From Rhodospirillales bacterium (GTDB lineage: Bacteria; Pseudomonadota; Alphaproteobacteria; ATCC43930; CGMCC-115725): a stretch of DNA of 64,000 nt. Of the stretch, positions 1 through 52,396 are shown in pieces. The stretch spans positions 1 to 64,000 of the forward strand of contig JAQGIC010000135.1 in the NCBI GenBank assembly GCA_028288725.1. The letters are read 5' to 3'. A model generated the notes under the pieces. That model saw only the letters and a list, made by a program, of their open reading frames with translations. It was not told the DNA's origin and did no database searches. A program made the position numbers and the translations under genes. The stretch's first letter is position 1, and each line of letters opens with the position of its first letter.

Positions 1-189
1 TATTCCTGGCGCCTGGTCCTGGCCCCGGAGCCGATCATGGACTACGTCGTCGCCCATGAGGTCGCCCATCTGGCCGAGATGAACCACAGCACCCGCTTCT
101 GGCGCGTGGTCGCCCAACTGTCGCCCGAGTTCGACGACGCGCGCGCCTGGCTGAAGCGCAACGGGCCGCAGCTGCTGCGTTACGGGTGA
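1..189 (+). CDS. YgjP-like (DUF45) zinc metallopeptidase, C-terminal fragment
   Basis: The open frame enters from the left edge and ends at TGA 187-189, leaving the last 62 residues. It contains HEVAHL (codons 19-24), the HExxH zinc-binding motif, followed by H-S-T-R-F-W, which matches the C-terminal end of the YgjP/DUF45 family where the third zinc ligand lies in a N-H-S-x-x-F-W segment. Members are cytosolic SprT-like putative metalloproteases of about 230 residues, so roughly three quarters of the gene lies outside the window. Codon usage is strongly GC-rich, unlike the DNA immediately downstream. Confidence 0.85.
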   Translation, partial: YSWRLVLAPEPIMDYVVAHEVAHLAEMNHSTRFWRVVAQLSPEFDDARAWLKRNGPQLLRYG

Positions 190-593
190 CGCGCCTGCGG
201 TTCGAAGTCCATTCGCCAGCGAAGGCAATGGCCATGTTGGGTGGACTCCGGTCTGGCCGGCTTCGGGCGTCGGTGCAAAATAGCGGACATTCGTCTCCCG
301 TTAAGGATTTTCGGACGTCTGCCGAACACTGTCGGGGGTGTGTCGATGGCAGGCATCCGAAAATCCTTAACGAAAGCGGCCGTATGAGGTCAAAGGCCGC
401 ACCTCAGACAGGGCACCCGGTCCTCCAGATCGTCAAGCCCTCTTCGCGGCCCGATCGGAAAGGGGCAGCCGGGCTGCCCGCCGAAATGACGGCCCACGCC
501 CAATTAATCGAGACATCTAAAGCGAGAGGTCGCTGCTGGACCGTTGCATCTTGTGATAGTGTTTGTCGGCGGGTAACAGCTGAGGCGGGCAAG
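190..593. other. intergenic, left flank of the islet
   Basis: No gene is supported here. The frame of the downstream nuclease gene stays open back to 186, but no ribosome-binding site or conserved protein sequence is seen before 594. The stretch holds the 17-bp inverted repeat at 299-372. Base composition falls from the GC-rich chromosomal background to a mixed composition that persists to about 3380. Confidence 0.5.
299..372. repeat. perfect 17-bp inverted repeat (hairpin or element ends)
   Basis: CGTTAAGGATTTTCGGA at 299-315 is exactly reverse-complementary to 356-372. The 40-bp interior has a further short complementarity (CTGCC near 319 against GGCAG near 348). It lies just after the metallopeptidase gene and before the nuclease pair. 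There is no T-tract typical of an intrinsic terminator. A small non-autonomous element, a regulatory cruciform or an island edge are all possible. Confidence 0.75.
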
Positions 594-1136
594 ATGTTTT
601 TCGATACCTATGGGCCCTATGATCTGGCACGAGATGGCAGGGAAATTCCGGCGAAGCAGCCGGATATGTGGGCCGAGATCCGCGCCCACTCCAAGCAATA
701 CGACTACCCAGAGAAAGGGCTGGAGAGTGCCATCGGTTGTTATGCATTCGGCTTGAAGAACGGCACAAACTACAAGCCCTGGTACATCGGGATGACGGTG
801 GCAAAGCGGGGATTCCGAGGGGAAATCCTTCAGCCACACAAGTTGGCCCACTACAACACGGTCGTCGGCAGCAAGAAAGGCACGCCAGTTATGTTCCTGT
901 TTCCGCTTTTGACCGGCAATTGGCACTTCAGCCGAGACCGTGGCGACAGCGTGCCCCTGGTCCGCTGGGTCGAGAAAATGCTGTTCGGCATCGCCTTAAC
1001 GAGGAACCCTGAGTGCCGAAATCAGCGAGATACAAAATTTCTGCGCAATGTCGAAGTCCGTGGTGTCTTCAATAGTAGGCAGCCCGGCCGTTCGAGCGAA
1101 GCAATGCAAGCTGTGCGCAGCATGCTTGGTGCCTGA
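594..1136 (+). CDS. GIY-YIG-like endonuclease family protein
   Basis: This 180-residue protein shows GIY-YIG hallmarks. G-C-Y at 48-50 stands for the first strand and W-Y-I-G-M-T at 63-68 for the YIG strand. An arginine follows at 75 (G-F-R-G-E), the probable metal-binding glutamate is E127 in R-W-V-E-K-M-L-F, and an R-N-P-E-C-R-N segment (137-143) is typical of the family C-terminus. The frame is open upstream, but 594 is the first start giving the conserved region and fits a compact cytosolic nuclease. It ends 3 nt before an HNH gene, implying an operon. No database search was possible, so the assignment rests on motif spacing; the biological role is unknown. Confidence 0.6.
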   Translation: MFFDTYGPYDLARDGREIPAKQPDMWAEIRAHSKQYDYPEKGLESAIGCYAFGLKNGTNYKPWYIGMTVAKRGFRGEILQPHKLAHYNTVVGSKKGTPVMFLFPLLTGNWHFSRDRGDSVPLVRWVEKMLFGIALTRNPECRNQRDTKFLRNVEVRGVFNSRQPGRSSEAMQAVRSMLGA

Positions 1137-1139
1137 CCA

Positions 1140-1895
1140 GTGTCCGATTTATTCAAAGCGTCGATCCGTGAGGACCTCTGGCATCGGAATGCGCCAAGAT
1201 CTCGCCCGGTTCGCCCCGGATATTACGACCAATTGCTCATGTGCTGCGCGTGCGGTCGGCTTCTTCCCCAGGATTCCTTCGATTTGGAACACCTCGTTCC
1301 GCAACAGGTGGTCAAACGGGATCCCGCTGTCGTAAAAACGAACCCTTTGACCCCTGTCAATACCCGGTCAGGAAATCTTCTGCTCTGCAAGGAGCCGCTC
1401 AGGATTAAGGGGAAGGTTTGCTATAGGAATGGCTGCAATAGCTGGAAAGGTCGTGTCTTCGACCATGCGCTCAACGATCTCGTCGGAGGCACCGGACTGA
1501 AGGCCGAACGATGCACGCAAATCCATATCATCGCGGCTTTGTCCCTGGCCTACTTGGCGATGGTCGCCGAATTTGGCTTCATCGTCACCTTGATGCCGAG
1601 CGGTCGATTGATGCGGGAGCAGTTTTTTATGCCCAGAAAGTTCCACCGGGCGCTGCCCGTTAATTGCCAGATGATCCTCGCCGGGAGAGTGCCGATCGAA
1701 TCGCCGGGCGCTCCCCTGTGGTCGAAGCCATTTTCCTTCGGCTTCGACCGGCCCGGAATCTGCTCTGTCGGAATTCGGAACATCGCCTTAGGGGTGCCGG
1801 TCTCTCGCGACCCCAGGGTGCCTTTCTCTCAGCACCTTCGGATAGTTCCCAGCCGATACAAGCTGCGACCGGATTTCCATACGGTGTTTAGGTGA
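1140..1895 (+). CDS. HNH endonuclease family protein
   Basis: The product has 251 residues and a GTG start (1140) 3 nt after the stop of the GIY-YIG-like gene, so it is probably translationally coupled. A zinc-stabilised HNH core is visible: C35-x2-C38, then D-L-E-H-L-V-P (48-54) carrying the general-base histidine, then N-L-L-L-C (79-83), C94, and G-C-N-x-x-K-G (98-104). The C-terminal 130 residues have no domain I recognise and may bind DNA or a partner. Two different nuclease folds in one operon inside a compositionally distinct islet suggest an accessory, possibly defensive, function. That role is inference. Confidence 0.65.
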   Translation: MSDLFKASIREDLWHRNAPRSRPVRPGYYDQLLMCCACGRLLPQDSFDLEHLVPQQVVKRDPAVVKTNPLTPVNTRSGNLLLCKEPLRIKGKVCYRNGCNSWKGRVFDHALNDLVGGTGLKAERCTQIHIIAALSLAYLAMVAEFGFIVTLMPSGRLMREQFFMPRKFHRALPVNCQMILAGRVPIESPGAPLWSKPFSFGFDRPGICSVGIRNIALGVPVSRDPRVPFSQHLRIVPSRYKLRPDFHTVFR

Positions 1896-2303
1896 CCATC
1901 AACTCGGCAAGATGTGATGGAATCAGAGGACTTCCTGCGCTTTTGTCGAGGAACTAGTCCGTGATCATCGCGCCATGATGGTGGCGGCGTATCGACCGGG
2001 CATGCGCACGTCCTATGGCAGGCAAGCCGATGTCTGCAATGTGGCGACACGAATTTTCGTCTAAACGTCTTTGATGGGTCGATTCCTGCCGATCGCCGTG
2101 ACATCGACGGGCGCAATCCATTGAGGGTGATATGGCTTGTCGGGTTGCGGGCAAGTCAAAGTTATAAGCGGTCACTCGCATCGTCGTCTTGGTGGCAGGC
2201 GCACGTGCCGTCTGGGCAAGGATTTCGACGTAATGCCGTTGTTCAGGTCTACTGCAACTGTCTATGGTTGAAGAGGGTTTGCTGATCGCGAGGGAATAGA
2301 ATC
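1896..2303. other. intergenic region
   Basis: I see no convincing gene. The short open frames have no ribosome-binding site and no recognisable protein features. It contains the first copy (2075-2090) of a 16-bp direct repeat whose second copy is at 2880-2895. Confidence 0.5.
2075..2090 (+). repeat. 16-bp direct repeat, copy 1
   Basis: TGGGTCGATTCCTGCC occurs here and again at 2880-2895 in the same orientation, flanking the LprI-like gene. Neighbouring bases differ, so the identity is limited to the 16 bp. Confidence 0.6.
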
Positions 2304-2786
2304 ATGCCGTGGTGGTTCACCTTTGCCCGCCCGCTCAAATGTAGAAGGGGTTGGCCGCCGCACCTCGTGCTCTGGCTGGCCGCCGTAGCATGCTCAATTT
2401 CGACCTCAGCGTTTGCCAACCGCGATTGCTCCGGATTCTCCGGAGCGGACGAGAGCGCCTGCCTAATGAAAGGCACTGCGAAAGCCGAAGCAACCATGCG
2501 CAGGAATTATGACCGCGCTATTGATGCAGCGAAGGCAATGTTGGATTCGGAATTGAAGGATCCGGCGATGGGGATTCACCCCGATTTTCGTGCGCAGGTC
2601 GCGGAGGACCAGAAGAGGTGGAAATCCTGGGCAGAGCACGAATGCGGTTCGGAAGGTGACTTTATCATGGGTACAGGAGGAACGCTGATTGAGATAGAAT
2701 GCCGGAAGAGGTTAGCGCTTGATCGAACGAGGATGTTGAATGCTTTCACGCAACAGTTTCAAAGTCTTACGCCACAAAATAAATAA
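2304..2786 (+). CDS. secreted LprI/DUF1311-family protein
   Basis: The product has 160 residues. The N-terminus has basic residues followed by a hydrophobic stretch (about 20-36) ending A-F-A-N, a likely signal peptide. The mature part has the DUF1311 (lysozyme-inhibitor LprI N-terminal) layout: D-C near 42, a second Cys near 53, a helix with R-R-N-Y-D-R-A, then A-E-D-Q-K-R-W-K-S-W...E-C, a G-G-T pair and a final C-R-K-R-L motif, giving two potential disulfides. Family members are periplasmic or envelope proteins; some inhibit lysozyme, but most are untested. It is flanked by the 16-bp direct repeats and has no operon partner. Confidence 0.7.
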   Translation: MPWWFTFARPLKCRRGWPPHLVLWLAAVACSISTSAFANRDCSGFSGADESACLMKGTAKAEATMRRNYDRAIDAAKAMLDSELKDPAMGIHPDFRAQVAEDQKRWKSWAEHECGSEGDFIMGTGGTLIEIECRKRLALDRTRMLNAFTQQFQSLTPQNK

Positions 2787-2879
2787 CTGAGACCGATCCT
2801 ATACCTGTCACAGTCATGATTTTATCACTGCTAAACGACTGATTTCGGGAAGCCTCGTGATCCGGCTGTACGCCCTACT

Positions 2880-2895
2880 TGGGTCGATTCCTGCC
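2880..2895 (+). repeat. 16-bp direct repeat, copy 2
   Basis: Second exact copy of TGGGTCGATTCCTGCC (first at 2075-2090), located 94 bp after the LprI-like gene and just beyond the 3' end of the next gene on the minus strand. Confidence 0.6.
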
Positions 2896-2907
2896 GCACA
2901 AGAGCTG

Positions 2908-3276
2908 CTACGCGAAACGCGATTCCCAAGGCATCAAATCGAAGACGGCACGCTCAAAATCAAATCCAGTCGTCGCGACGTTGGCGTTACAATACCCCTC
3001 GATCACGGAGAGCCGACCGTCTTCTAGGAAAACGATGAAGCCCATGCCGTGCTCGATTCCGAGCACATCCCCATAGGCTCCACTTAATGGAGAACTTTCG
3101 ATCAACGGCGGCGACGACGGATCGACGCGGAGCGTTGAAAAGAAACCTGCGCCGCTGTTATTGAAGGAACCGACCTGCGCCGAGGCGATTTGGAAACGGA
3201 GGGCTTCGAGCGAGCGGACATACTGCCCCGCCGTGATGTCCAAAACGGCTTTCTCGATCTTCCATAGAGGCCTCAT
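2908..3276 (-). CDS. hypothetical protein
   Basis: This 122-residue protein is not one I recognise. It has a mixed alpha/beta composition with no membrane segment, starting M-R-P-L-W-K-I-E-K-A-V-L. A glycine/acid-rich centre (S-G-A-Y-G-D-V-L-G-I-E-H-G) is followed by a strand-rich segment (G-F-I-V-F-L-E-D-G-R-L-S-V-I-E-G-Y) resembling small immunity or SUKH-like folds only in general appearance. It ends 12 nt from the 16-bp repeat copy at 2880. Its GC content matches the islet rather than the chromosome. Length and codon bias support a real gene; the function is open. Confidence 0.5.
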   Translation of the reverse strand: MRPLWKIEKAVLDITAGQYVRSLEALRFQIASAQVGSFNNSGAGFFSTLRVDPSSPPLIESSPLSGAYGDVLGIEHGMGFIVFLEDGRLSVIEGYCNANVATTGFDFERAVFDLMPWESRFA

Positions 3277-3383
3277 ATCGCCACTTTATCGAAGTTGTTG
3301 CACGTCTGCTATCAGGGCAGCGCCCATCTGGATCGAGCGACCGCCCTGGGTCGACTGCGGTCTTTGATTTACGGTCCTGCCCC

Positions 3384-3791
3384 TCACCGACCATGCCAAG
3401 GCTCCCCCTCCGGCCGGATCAGCGCCTCCGGCAAAAGGTGCCAGGCCTTATGGATCTTCCAGGCCTGGTTCATGGTCAGCTTGCGCTTGCCGCTGAGCAA
3501 TTCCGACGCGCGCGAGCGCGAGCCCAGCACATGGGCGAGGTCGGCCTGGATCAGTTTGCGGTTGCGCATGAAATGGCGGATCGCCTCCAGCGCGGTCGGT
3601 TTCAGCAGGCGCAGCTCGCGCGCCTCATAGGCCTCGACCAGATCCAGCAACAGATCCAGGCGCAGCGCCAGATAGGTGCCGGTCTTGGGCACGGCGGCCC
3701 GGTGACGCTCGATTTCGTCGACCACCTTCAGATAGGTCTGCTGGTCGCGGATCGCCCGGATGTCGCCTATGTCCTTCATCACGTCGCCCAT
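3384..3791 (-). CDS. HigA-type HTH transcriptional regulator (orphan antitoxin-like)
   Basis: The product has 135 residues. The start at 3791 is chosen because GGGAGGT lies 4 nt upstream; the frame remains open further upstream only because it runs through a repeat array. The C-terminal half carries an Xre/HigA helix-turn-helix (I-Q-A-D-L-A-H-V-L-G-S-R-S-R-A-S-E-L-L then S-G-K-R-K-L), diagnostic of COG5499-type HigA antitoxins. The N-terminal half is the helical toxin-binding or dimerisation region. HigA normally pairs with an adjacent HigB RelE-fold mRNA interferase. No such gene lies on either side, so it may act purely as a DNA-binding regulator. The 22-bp palindromic array begins 52 bp upstream of its start and is a natural candidate operator. 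Confidence 0.75.
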   Translation of the reverse strand: MGDVMKDIGDIRAIRDQQTYLKVVDEIERHRAAVPKTGTYLALRLDLLLDLVEAYEARELRLLKPTALEAIRHFMRNRKLIQADLAHVLGSRSRASELLSGKRKLTMNQAWKIHKAWHLLPEALIRPEGEPWHGR

Positions 3792-3843
3792 TTTACCTCC
3801 CGCCTCTCCGCCGCCTGCGATCCCGCCGCTCCGGTCCCTGGAT

Positions 3844-4000
3844 GGGAACGGCACGATCCCGCCCTGGGAACCGTTGCTTCCCAGCGTGGGAACGGCTTGT
3901 TCCCCAACCGGGAAGGGTTTGTTCCCTGCTTGGGAAAAAACCCGGTCCCACCCGGGGAACATCTTGTTCCCAGGACGGGAGAAGTTCCCGGACTGGGAAC
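3844..4000. repeat. 22-bp tandem array of palindromic GGGAAC...TTCCC units
   Basis: Eight units start at 3844, 3866, 3888, 3910, 3932, 3955, 3977 and 3995, so the period is 22 bp apart from one 23-bp and one 18-bp step. A typical unit is GGGAAC, six variable bases, then TTCCC or GTTCCC, then a 4-5 bp linker, so each unit is itself an inverted repeat and the array reads alike on both strands. Linkers and loops vary while the GGGAA/TTCCC arms are kept, implying selection on the arms. Units sit in phase on about two helical turns. The array occupies the upstream region of the HigA-like gene. It resembles iteron or multi-operator arrays; it is not CRISPR, because there are no separate unique spacers. 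Confidence 0.85.
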
Positions 4001-4134
4001 GAGCCGGACGGCGCCAGCGTCCATCCGTCCGGGCCCGACGCCCGATCGTCCACCGAACCGAGGCCTCATGCCTGCCGGAAAAAATCGCGTGATCCAAAGG
4101 GCTTGCGACCTCGACGCCAACCTACCACGACGCC

Positions 4135-4150
4135 TGTTCCACGTGAAACA
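4135..4150. other. parS-like chromosome partition site
   Basis: TGTTCCACGTGAAACA differs at one base from the palindromic ParB-binding consensus TGTTTCACGTGAAACA. Such sites nucleate ParB spreading and cluster near oriC in most bacteria. It is intergenic, 135 bp beyond the palindromic array. No parB gene is in the window, and the ParA-like gene at 34198-34839 is not adjacent. The match is strong for a 16-mer; binding is inferred. Confidence 0.7.
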
Positions 4151-4544
4151 AAACAAGAACAAAATTTGAGCCGGAGAAAAATTGTCCGGCAGCCTGCGAA
4201 TGGCCGCCGAGTGTCCATTGGGGATGGGGTGGGGCTAACGCCGCTTCTGGGGATCTTCGGCCAAATCGCTCGGCCCCCGATTCGGGTCGAAGCGGTCTCC
4301 GCTTGGCAGGCTGGCCCGAGCTTTGATCCCAAGCAGAATTGATGAATTACCGTTTCAAATCCCTTGCCGTTATTCCCGCGCAAGCGGGAATCAGGCGCAA
4401 ACCGAAGGTTTGTCGCCCGAGTGGCAGAGATCTGTCACTTGCCCTGGATTCCCGCCTGCGCGGGAATGACGGATGATTTAATCCGACAGCCACGGGAAGG
4501 GTTGGCTGTGGGGGCGTCAAGGGTATGGGACAAGCAGAACCCGC
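4151..4544. other. intergenic region with a REP pair
   Basis: No gene is seen. The stretch after the parS-like site is A-rich for about 25 bp and then GC-rich. It contains an inverted pair of REP-like palindromes (4368-4472) downstream of the convergently transcribed PBP1A gene. Confidence 0.5.
4368..4472. repeat. REP/BIME element, copy 1
   Basis: Two REP-like palindromes face each other: TATTCCCGCGCAAGCGGGAA near 4371-4390, and ATTCCCGCCTGCGCGGGAAT followed by GACGG ending at 4472. The outer ends read CCGTTATTCCCGC and GCGGGAATGACGG. The same core recurs at 36093-36123 and 52312-52396. Confidence 0.75.
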
Positions 4545-6635
4545 TTACCGCGGATCGTGCCCCTGGGGCACGTAGGACGGCAGCGCCACCGGCGTATTGG
4601 TCGGCGTGATCTTGGTCGCCTGCTCCAGGACCCGCATGAAGCCGGCCGTGTCCGGCTCTTCATTGACGGCGATGGGCACGCCGTCCTCGCCCGGGCCCGT
4701 CGTCAGCGGCCGGATCGGCTGGCCCTTCAAAGCCGCGCTCATGAAATCGTGCCAGGCGTGGGCGGGCAGCGAGCCGCCGGTGACCTTGACCATCGGCGAC
4801 GCGTCGTCGTTGCCGAACCAGACGCCGGCGACCAGGTCGGCGGTATAGCCCATGAACCAGGCGTCGCGGTAATCCGAGGTCGTACCGGTCTTGCCCGCGG
4901 CCGGACGGCCGATCGCGGCCGCCTTGCCGGTGCCGTGCTGGATCACGCCTTGCAGCATGCGGTCCATGTCGGCGACGACCTGCGCCTGGATGATCCGGCC
5001 CTTGGTATTCTGCTGGCGCTGGTAGAACACCTTGCCCTTGGCGTCGCGGATGGCGGCGATGCCGTAGGGCCAGACCGCATAGCCGCCGTTGGCGAGCGTC
5101 GAATAGGCCGTGGTCAGCTCGATCAGCGAGACCTCGCCGGTGCCGAGCGCCAGGCTGGCGTCCTCGTTCAGGTCGCTGGTGATGCCCATCCGGTGGGCCG
5201 TGGCGATGACGTTGCGGATGCCGACCTTCTGGCCGACCTGGGCCGCGATCGTGTTCAGCGATTCGGCGACCGCCTCGGCCATGGTCACGTCGCCCAGATA
5301 GCGATTCTCGAAATCGTGCGGCTGCCAATTGCCGATCCGGGTCGGACCGTCGTTGAAATGATCGTCGGGCCGCAGACCCTTTTCCAGCGCGGTCAGATAG
5401 ACGAACGGCTTGAACGACGAGCCGGGCTGGCGCACGGCCTGGACCGCGCGGTTGAACTGGCTCGCCTGATAGTCCCGGCCGCCGACCATGGCGCGGATGG
5501 CGCCGTCGGGCGACATGGCGATGAGCGCCGCCTGGCTCGCCGCCGCCTTGGCGCCGTCCTTGGCCAGGATCGCCTCGAGCGCGCCCTCGGCCGCCAATTG
5601 CATCTTGGGATCGAGCGTGGTCACGACCGTGATGTCGCCCGACAGGCCGAAGGTCGCCGCCTGGTCCTGGACCCAATCGGCGTAATAGCGCATGCCCGGC
5701 CGCGTGATCGGCACGGCATTGAGCACGAAGCTCTGCTTCTGGATCGTGCTGGCCTCGTCCGCACTGAGATAGCCGGCCGCGACCATGTTGGTCAGCACCT
5801 GGGCCGTGCGCGTCGCGGCCCGCGCCTGGTCGCGCGCCGGGCTGAACCGGGTCGGCGCCTTCAACAGGCCCGCGAGCAGCGCGCATTCATAGGGGGACAA
5901 TCGCCGCGCCGATTTGCCGAAATAGCGCCGCGAGGCGGCGTCGACACCCCAGGTGCCGGCACCGAAATAGACGCGGTTCAGATAGATTTCGAGCAGCTGA
6001 TCCTTGGTGAAATGGCGTTCGAGCCAGACCGCCAGCACCGCCTCCTGCACCTTGCGCAGCAGGGTCTTGTCGGGTGTCAGGAACAGGTTCTTGGCGACCT
6101 GCTGGGTGATGGTGCTGCCGCCCTGGACCATCTGGCCCGACCGGAGGTCGACGAAGATCGCGCGCGCGATGCCGAGAGGATCGATGCCGAAGTGATGGTA
6201 GAAGCGCCGATCCTCGGTCGCGATCACCGCTTCGGGCAACGCCTTCGGCAGATCGGTGAGTTTCAGCTCCTCGCCATAGAGATCGCCGTAGGTCGCGATC
6301 AGCGATTCGTCGGCGGCGCGCAGCGTGATGCTGGGGTGATGCGCGGCCTGGGCCAGTTGCGAGGTATCGGGCAGGGTCGACGCCGCCCAGGCGATCAGAA
6401 GCCCGGCGCCGATGCTGCCCCAGACGAGCCCCAGCAGCCCCAGGCGCAGGCCCACGCGCACCGCCGCCCTCCGCCAGCCGGGCGGTTGGGGCGACCTGGC
6501 CGCGGGCTTTGCTGCCCGTCGCGGCTTCGGTGCTTCGCGCTTCGGCTCTCTGCCGGACAGCGGCGGTCTGTCGTTCGGCGTCACGCGCACAGGATGGGGA
6601 CTCCGATAATCACCGAAAATTTCCTCGACCGGCAT
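4545..6635 (-). CDS. mrcA: penicillin-binding protein 1A (class A PBP)
   Basis: The 696-residue bifunctional murein synthase begins with a basic, proline-rich cytoplasmic tail and a single membrane anchor (about 56-80). The GT51 glycosyltransferase follows, with the catalytic-Glu segment A-T-E-D-R-R-F-Y-H-H-F-G near 140 and G-G-S-T-I-T-Q-Q-V-A-K-N. The transpeptidase has the S-x-x-K nucleophile in P-G-S-S-F-K-P-F near 405, S-L-N, and K-T-G-T in A-G-K-T-G-T-T-S-D near 590. It polymerises and crosslinks peptidoglycan in the periplasm. At about 700 residues it is shorter than E. coli PBP1A and lacks the OB-like insertion, as is common in alphaproteobacteria. A long open frame on the opposite strand is a high-GC shadow. 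Confidence 0.95.
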   Translation of the reverse strand: MPVEEIFGDYRSPHPVRVTPNDRPPLSGREPKREAPKPRRAAKPAARSPQPPGWRRAAVRVGLRLGLLGLVWGSIGAGLLIAWAASTLPDTSQLAQAAHHPSITLRAADESLIATYGDLYGEELKLTDLPKALPEAVIATEDRRFYHHFGIDPLGIARAIFVDLRSGQMVQGGSTITQQVAKNLFLTPDKTLLRKVQEAVLAVWLERHFTKDQLLEIYLNRVYFGAGTWGVDAASRRYFGKSARRLSPYECALLAGLLKAPTRFSPARDQARAATRTAQVLTNMVAAGYLSADEASTIQKQSFVLNAVPITRPGMRYYADWVQDQAATFGLSGDITVVTTLDPKMQLAAEGALEAILAKDGAKAAASQAALIAMSPDGAIRAMVGGRDYQASQFNRAVQAVRQPGSSFKPFVYLTALEKGLRPDDHFNDGPTRIGNWQPHDFENRYLGDVTMAEAVAESLNTIAAQVGQKVGIRNVIATAHRMGITSDLNEDASLALGTGEVSLIELTTAYSTLANGGYAVWPYGIAAIRDAKGKVFYQRQQNTKGRIIQAQVVADMDRMLQGVIQHGTGKAAAIGRPAAGKTGTTSDYRDAWFMGYTADLVAGVWFGNDDASPMVKVTGGSLPAHAWHDFMSAALKGQPIRPLTTGPGEDGVPIAVNEEPDTAGFMRVLEQATKITPTNTPVALPSYVPQGHDPR

Positions 6636-52311: not shown

Positions 52312-52396
52312 CCGTCATTCCCGCGAAAGCGGGATTCCAGGGTCGCCGGAGCCATCTCGTGGTTGCCCTGGCTTCCCGCTTTCGCGGGAATGACGG
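52312..52396. repeat. REP/BIME element, copy 3 (23-bp perfect arms)
   Basis: The 23 bp at 52312-52334, starting CCGTCATTCCCGCGAAAG, are exactly reverse-complementary to 52374-52396; an inner CCAGGG/CCCTGG pair extends the arms. It has the same core as the elements at 4368-4472 and 36093-36123 and lies between two minus-strand genes. Confidence 0.85.

Follow-up and report, generated by a model that had tools for sequence, protein, structure and literature searches.

Adjacent genes for a predicted divergent GIY-YIG-fold protein and an HNH-type protein in a variable locus of low GC in a Rhodospirillales bacterium

The two genes and their low-GC surroundings

Two adjacent genes, here called A and B, lie near the left end of the window, by which we mean the whole 64,000-nt stretch of DNA that was analysed; its base 1 is the first base of the contig, and readable DNA starts there. 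The genes and the features around them are listed in Table 1. A sequence-only reading of this DNA had described two neighbouring genes 3 nt apart, the second with a GTG start, and this was borne out: the TGA stop of A occupies 1134–1136 and the GTG of B begins at 1140, and the start points of both genes are the same as in the relatives of each. GC content at codon positions 1 to 3 is 0.556, 0.439 and 0.683 in A and 0.574, 0.450 and 0.681 in B, and the high third-position values are the pattern of coding sequence in a GC-rich genome.

Table 1. Positions in the window of the two genes and of the features around them
Feature	Coordinates	Strand	Description
Gene A	594..1136	+	180 aa; divergent stand-alone protein of predicted GIY-YIG fold; likely active-site residues Y50, Y64, K83, Y87, E127, N143
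Gene B	1140..1895	+	251 aa, GTG start; HNH-type protein, HNH core at residues 35-104
Low-GC islet	200..3330		contains A, B and two more small genes
Inverted repeat	299..372		25-nt arms, 24-nt spacer

The lower GC that had been noted for the genes relative to their surroundings was confirmed, at 56.4% for A and B together versus 65.1% across the window; out of 1254 sliding windows as long as the pair, only 21 are as low. The islet is broader than the 594–1895 first assigned to it, with 56.0% GC over its full extent and the starts of the 40 lowest sliding windows all within 251–2301. In a genome of the same genus (G010) the flanking ygjP-like and penicillin-binding-protein genes have matches but positions 190–4601 have none in the fetched stretch, which marks the islet as variable DNA. 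A gene for an LprI-type (lysozyme inhibitor) protein lies within the islet at 2304–2786 (PF07007, E 9e-7). To its right, the protein of a helix-turn-helix gene on the minus strand (3384–4097) matches the first 120 positions of the PADLOC PD-Lambda-2_B profile at E 4e-22; directly before its likely start is an array of TTCCC...GGGAA palindromes at a spacing of ~22 nt (3835–4000), and no partner toxin was identified for it. A tRNA scan found no tRNA close to the islet, and a promoter and terminator scan gave a count not above that of shuffled sequence. A methyltransferase, which would mark a type II restriction-modification system, was not among the six open reading frames of window positions 1–4097 in a Pfam scan, a segment bounded on the left by the contig start.

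The inverted repeat that had been reported next to the genes is real, with arms at 299–323 and 348–372 that are 92% complementary and a predicted RNA fold of −48.5 kcal/mol (z −7.1), but it does not appear to be part of a cassette with them. It is present in a single copy in the genome, allowing up to 2 mismatches, and no Rfam family was found at its position (one sub-threshold row fell elsewhere). Since no inverted repeat with a 12-nt perfect seed was found within 600 nt of the gene in any of the 19 related loci examined, it is probably unrelated to A and B. Elsewhere in the window, at 52312–52396, is a further long inverted repeat, this one perfect and with little spacer, where 14-nt seeds starting at 52312–52321 pair with seeds starting at 52383–52374.

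Gene A and the GIY-YIG superfamily

The protein of gene A carries G48-C49-Y50, Y64-I65-G66, R75 and E127, with GCY instead of GIY as its first box. At E 1 it had no match among the Pfam, NCBIfam and PADLOC models, and a PHROGs match at E 0.25 was dismissed as chance-level. Sequence searches of solved structures with A and B gave nothing convincing. The Pfam GIY-YIG model (PF01541) has one match in this genome, in a long UvrC-type open frame that is not A.

The AlphaFold model of A has a mean pLDDT of 86.8 and the order strand (48–56), strand (59–68), helix (81–93), strand (97–106), helix (120–137). When it was compared with 997 chains in VIA-align, 14 GIY-YIG structures ranked first with Z from 7.2 to 4.5, followed by DNA polymerase IV at 4.5; all of these values are below 8, where a score can stem from a common arrangement, and the GIY-YIG case for A therefore depends on the ranking plus the conserved residues. 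The GIY-YIG structures topping the list include the plant Grx N-terminal domain, T4 EndoII (which shares the top Z of 7.2), UvrC, PD-T4-3 (Z 6.0) and Eco29kI; we take the Grx domain, and likewise structure 2lwf, to have the GIY-YIG fold. Foldseek returned nothing at E ≤ 0.001 from the PDB, where UvrC stood at ranks 16, 19 and 24 with TM by target of 0.43–0.47, or from viral proteins, where several of the rows listed are named GIY-YIG or homing endonuclease. In profile comparison A scored 14.1% (P 0.0019) against a mixed GIY-YIG set with the GIY and YIG boxes aligned, and only 2.0% against UvrC alone. By sequence profiles alone A would not be joined to GIY-YIG, which counts against the explanation we favour below. 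Going by the structure model, A is a very divergent GIY-YIG-fold protein, a branch missed by Pfam, NCBIfam, PADLOC and PHROGs.

Conservation was counted over 19 aligned full-length members, omitting the partial members L013 and L050. G48, Y50, Y64, G66, G96, E127, N138, N143, G157 and G165 are found in all 19, E77 in 18 and K83 in 17, and position 87 is Tyr or Phe in 18, while R75 is Arg in just six. The motifs named in the sequence-only reading thus stood for the YIG at 64–66 and for E127, but R75 is not conserved. Instead, K83 probably replaces the catalytic arginine in this family: a low-confidence extension of the mixed GIY-YIG alignment places it opposite that residue, and Y87 follows four residues on, as Y43 of UvrC (a residue number named in the titles of matched structures) follows what we take to be its catalytic arginine, Arg39. 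The UvrC arginine presumably sits in the helix at whose start A carries K83. A central arginine is part of the superfamily definition in the section of PMC1564403 consulted, and the remaining superfamily marks, the GIY/YIG boxes and the C-terminal glutamate, are all present in A. We found no paper on lysine in place of the GIY-YIG catalytic arginine among open-licence PMC papers, and the probable Arg-to-Lys change would make A a probe of the role of the conserved arginine in the superfamily.

We propose that A is a single-domain member of this undescribed GIY-YIG branch, in which the tyrosine pair Y50/Y64 and a metal-binding E127 would cut DNA and K83 would work where most GIY-YIG enzymes have arginine. 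It is also conceivable, but very unlikely, that A is a DNA-binding GIY-YIG protein with weak or no catalytic activity, or that it is a phage nuclease acting on host DNA in the manner of T4 endonuclease II. The low count for R75 and the lack of a conserved arginine in its place are consistent with a dead enzyme, and the shared top score of T4 EndoII and the six relatives on phage-like contigs are consistent with a phage nuclease. On the other hand, a dead enzyme would be expected to lose its active-site residues, and both tyrosines, E127 and N143 are invariant and K83 nearly so; and the twelve other full-length members found off viral contigs argue against a phage nuclease.

Compared with the GIY-YIG (URI) superfamily, which includes the UvrC N-terminal domain, T4 endonuclease II, Eco29kI and Hpy188I, A is alike in its order of strands and helices, its top structural matches and its conserved Tyr, Tyr-x-Gly, Glu and Asn, and differs in the GCY first box, the apparent K83 for Arg and a sequence that falls below PF01541 detection. 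Defence nucleases with this fold include CMoRE and SNIPE (PMC10952713, in the part consulted). CMoRE (PD-T4-3) is described in the available sections of PMC12923530 as a single-gene, 5hmC-directed nuclease that carries a GIYxY-YIG motif and, at its C terminus, a sensing domain. Like CMoRE, A is encoded by a single gene and has the predicted GIY-YIG fold, but it has F52 at the position of the third tyrosine (Phe in 17/17 members), so the GIYxY-YIG motif is absent, and it has no room for a C-terminal sensing domain. SNIPE (PD-lambda-1) is membrane-anchored and has a membrane segment and DUF4041 ahead of its GIY-YIG nuclease, according to the portion of PMC13190303 consulted; A, at 180 aa, has no membrane segment (best 19-residue hydropathy 0.90) and no Pfam domain. 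Judged by the marks given in these excerpts, the CMoRE- and SNIPE-specific features are absent from A, and what is new here is a variant of known nuclease kinds.

Gene B and the HNH nucleases

Gene B encodes C35xxC38, E50-H51, N79, C83 and C99-N100xxK103, with a 15-residue stretch between C83 and C99, and so has the HNH core pattern CxxC ... D/E-H ... N ... C ... C-N-xx-K. When a profile of the three B-family members was compared with a set of HNH proteins taken from related genomes, the match scored 89.6% (P 1.9e-6), as against P 0.45 and 0.25 in two cross controls. All three proteins retain the core residues, except that N79 is Leu in the relative from a Komagataeibacter plasmid (L012). These results uphold the HNH zinc core that had been recognized in B from its sequence and, with the structural matches of A, the prediction of two nucleases of different folds.

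No Pfam or NCBIfam model matched B at E 1. PADLOC PtuB matches it weakly (E 5e-4) over the 39 residues 30–68, and the relatives of B weakly match HNH_5 (E 0.0047 and 0.012). B has the HNH core in common with HNH endonucleases such as Septu PtuB (PF01844, HNH_5), and differs in the stretch between C83 and C99 and in its C-terminal part. No PtuA-type ATPase, the mark of Septu, was found beside B among the open reading frames scanned, its neighbour being A. The structure model of the whole protein has a pLDDT of 35.7, too low to read the beta-beta-alpha-metal fold of HNH proteins from it. Residues 130–148 are hydrophobic (19-residue hydropathy 2.08) and may form a helix that lies buried or in a membrane. 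The searches with B also gave LRRC8C rows (E 0.019), which were discounted as probable matches to a hydrophobic segment. We propose that B would cut by the HNH mechanism, and its separate C-terminal region probably binds the target.

Only two relatives of B were found. One is on the Komagataeibacter conjugative plasmid (34–37% identity), next to PDC-S35, a TIR candidate defence gene, and a large gene whose annotation is type III restriction helicase. The other is on a prophage-like viral contig (51%), where genes named by eye include integrase-like and repressor-like ones. Among whole genomes, B was found in 1/39 of the family and, by profile, in 1/385 of the class, itself both times. Another hit with B among the class genomes (L017, E 6e-4) was dropped; it falls in a 2-oxoglutarate-dehydrogenase-like frame (named by eye).

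Distribution, pairing and neighbourhoods

Relatives of A were found at seven loci in assembled genome contigs (61–30% identity), on six IMG/VR viral (phage-like) contigs and in three plasmid records, two of them fetched, and as named in the database records the family spans several phyla. Among whole genomes, A is present in 1/39 of its family (itself), 4/385 of its class and, by profile, 3/398 of its phylum, the last two counts including itself; another family gave 2/199, one of them already known (the other, G900, was treated as the same as one plasmid relative and counted once). A search of phage records for relatives of A or B found none.

The sequence-only reading had proposed a possibly undescribed two-nuclease system, to be supported by recurrent pairing and refuted if the genes never co-occurred elsewhere. 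Every frame of at least 40 codons in 18 + 2 other A loci was scanned with the B and HNH profiles. A relative of B was found in 0/20 of these loci (weakest rows L021 at E 0.089 and L025 at E 0.65), no match to the HNH set was better than E 0.43, and conversely a relative of A was found in 0/2 other B loci. Some flanks are short (6 kb at L009, 8 kb at L021, and A at the edge in L050) and the genome-contig search recovers close relatives only, so rare A-B pairs could have escaped. Within the searchable sequence there was no co-occurrence, and a recurrent two-gene system of A and B is not supported.

The 3-nt spacing suggests co-expression, which counts against the explanation we favour, and A and B are probably co-transcribed in this genome owing to that spacing and not as one machine. 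It seems improbable that they make up one two-component defence system, expressed from one mRNA, in which one nuclease nicks or senses and the other completes the cut. The spacing, the GTG start and the common islet all fit such a system, as does a GIY-YIG-like frame of another kind ~1.1 kb from the Komagataeibacter relative of B, but that frame is on the opposite strand in a separate gene row and is frame-broken, the pairing counts are zero in both directions, and the closest relatives of A (57–61% identity) have neighbours that differ from those of A here. The frame (L012:9300–10077, minus strand), which also neighbours PDC-S35 and the restriction helicase gene, has a match to the GIY-YIG set at E 5.7e-4 but a marginal one to A (E 0.04). 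The passages of PMC10853773 consulted name nucleases of both the GIY-YIG and the HNH kind in the vicinity of Dnd modification genes, and we found no GIY-YIG and HNH defence pair in the parts seen of open-licence PMC papers. There is also a slim chance that the A family is an undescribed single-gene anti-invader system, carried by prophages and in defence islands and with lysine for the catalytic arginine, that has here captured B as a translationally coupled second cutter, the two acting together. The locus is a caution that a gene spacing of 3 nt is no proof of a system.

The neighbours of the A relatives include AbiU/AIPR (L005), SIR2 (L006), PDC-S11 with an AAA ATPase and McrC (McrBC; L007), PDC-M65B and PDC-S39 (L011), a MazF-like toxin (L008), the conjugation gene TrbI (L002), resolvase-like genes (L021 and L022), phage Mu F (L023) and an IS-type integrase (L026). 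As a controlled count, the two nearest called genes on either flank of A at 12 non-viral loci, 48 proteins in all, were compared with 48 proteins from 12 arbitrary 12-kb regions. At E 1e-10, PADLOC matches covered 35 families in the A set and none in the control (0/48 proteins), and true-looking defence or candidate defence matches occurred at 4/12 non-viral A loci (L005, L006, L007 and L011) versus 0/12 control regions; gene calls were rough, and the control was small and drawn mostly from other genomes. Rows for DpdF, PsyrT, BrxH and Cas3-like proteins at L008 were left uncounted, as they probably reflect one RecQ-type helicase (named by eye). Together with the islet that has no match in the same-genus region, these neighbours agree with the link to defence or mobile elements drawn in the earlier reading.

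HNH, like GIY-YIG, is a fold of homing endonucleases, and homing enzymes usually carry an extra DNA-binding domain. A, and perhaps B, could be a free-standing selfish nuclease of this type that spreads by cutting alleles without it, which we consider unlikely. In its favour, GIY-YIG is named as a homing-endonuclease fold in the section of PMC1564403 consulted, and the relatives of A occupy scattered positions, some on phage-like contigs and one between ruvA and ruvB. However, the scanned A proteins showed no additional DNA-binding domain, there is no recurring target gene, and the neighbours include defence genes with none in the control.

The explanation we favour, at about an even chance, is that A and B are unrelated and independently mobile DNA endonuclease genes that are neighbours in a variable locus of low GC, where they would have been brought together by chance. 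Each would act on incoming DNA, protecting a mobile element or the host against other elements, and the genes would be carried by prophages and plasmids and in defence islands. As phage-like contigs are among its carriers, A may also serve the phage itself or act in homing. With its defence neighbours and its phage-like contigs, the A family is a candidate for phage-challenge testing. Plainly housekeeping neighbours at some non-viral A loci, such as ruvA-ruvB, count against the favoured explanation. The A relative between these two genes (L027:8335–8871, minus strand), seen in one genome only, starts 14 nt after ruvA and overlaps the start of ruvB by 4 nt.
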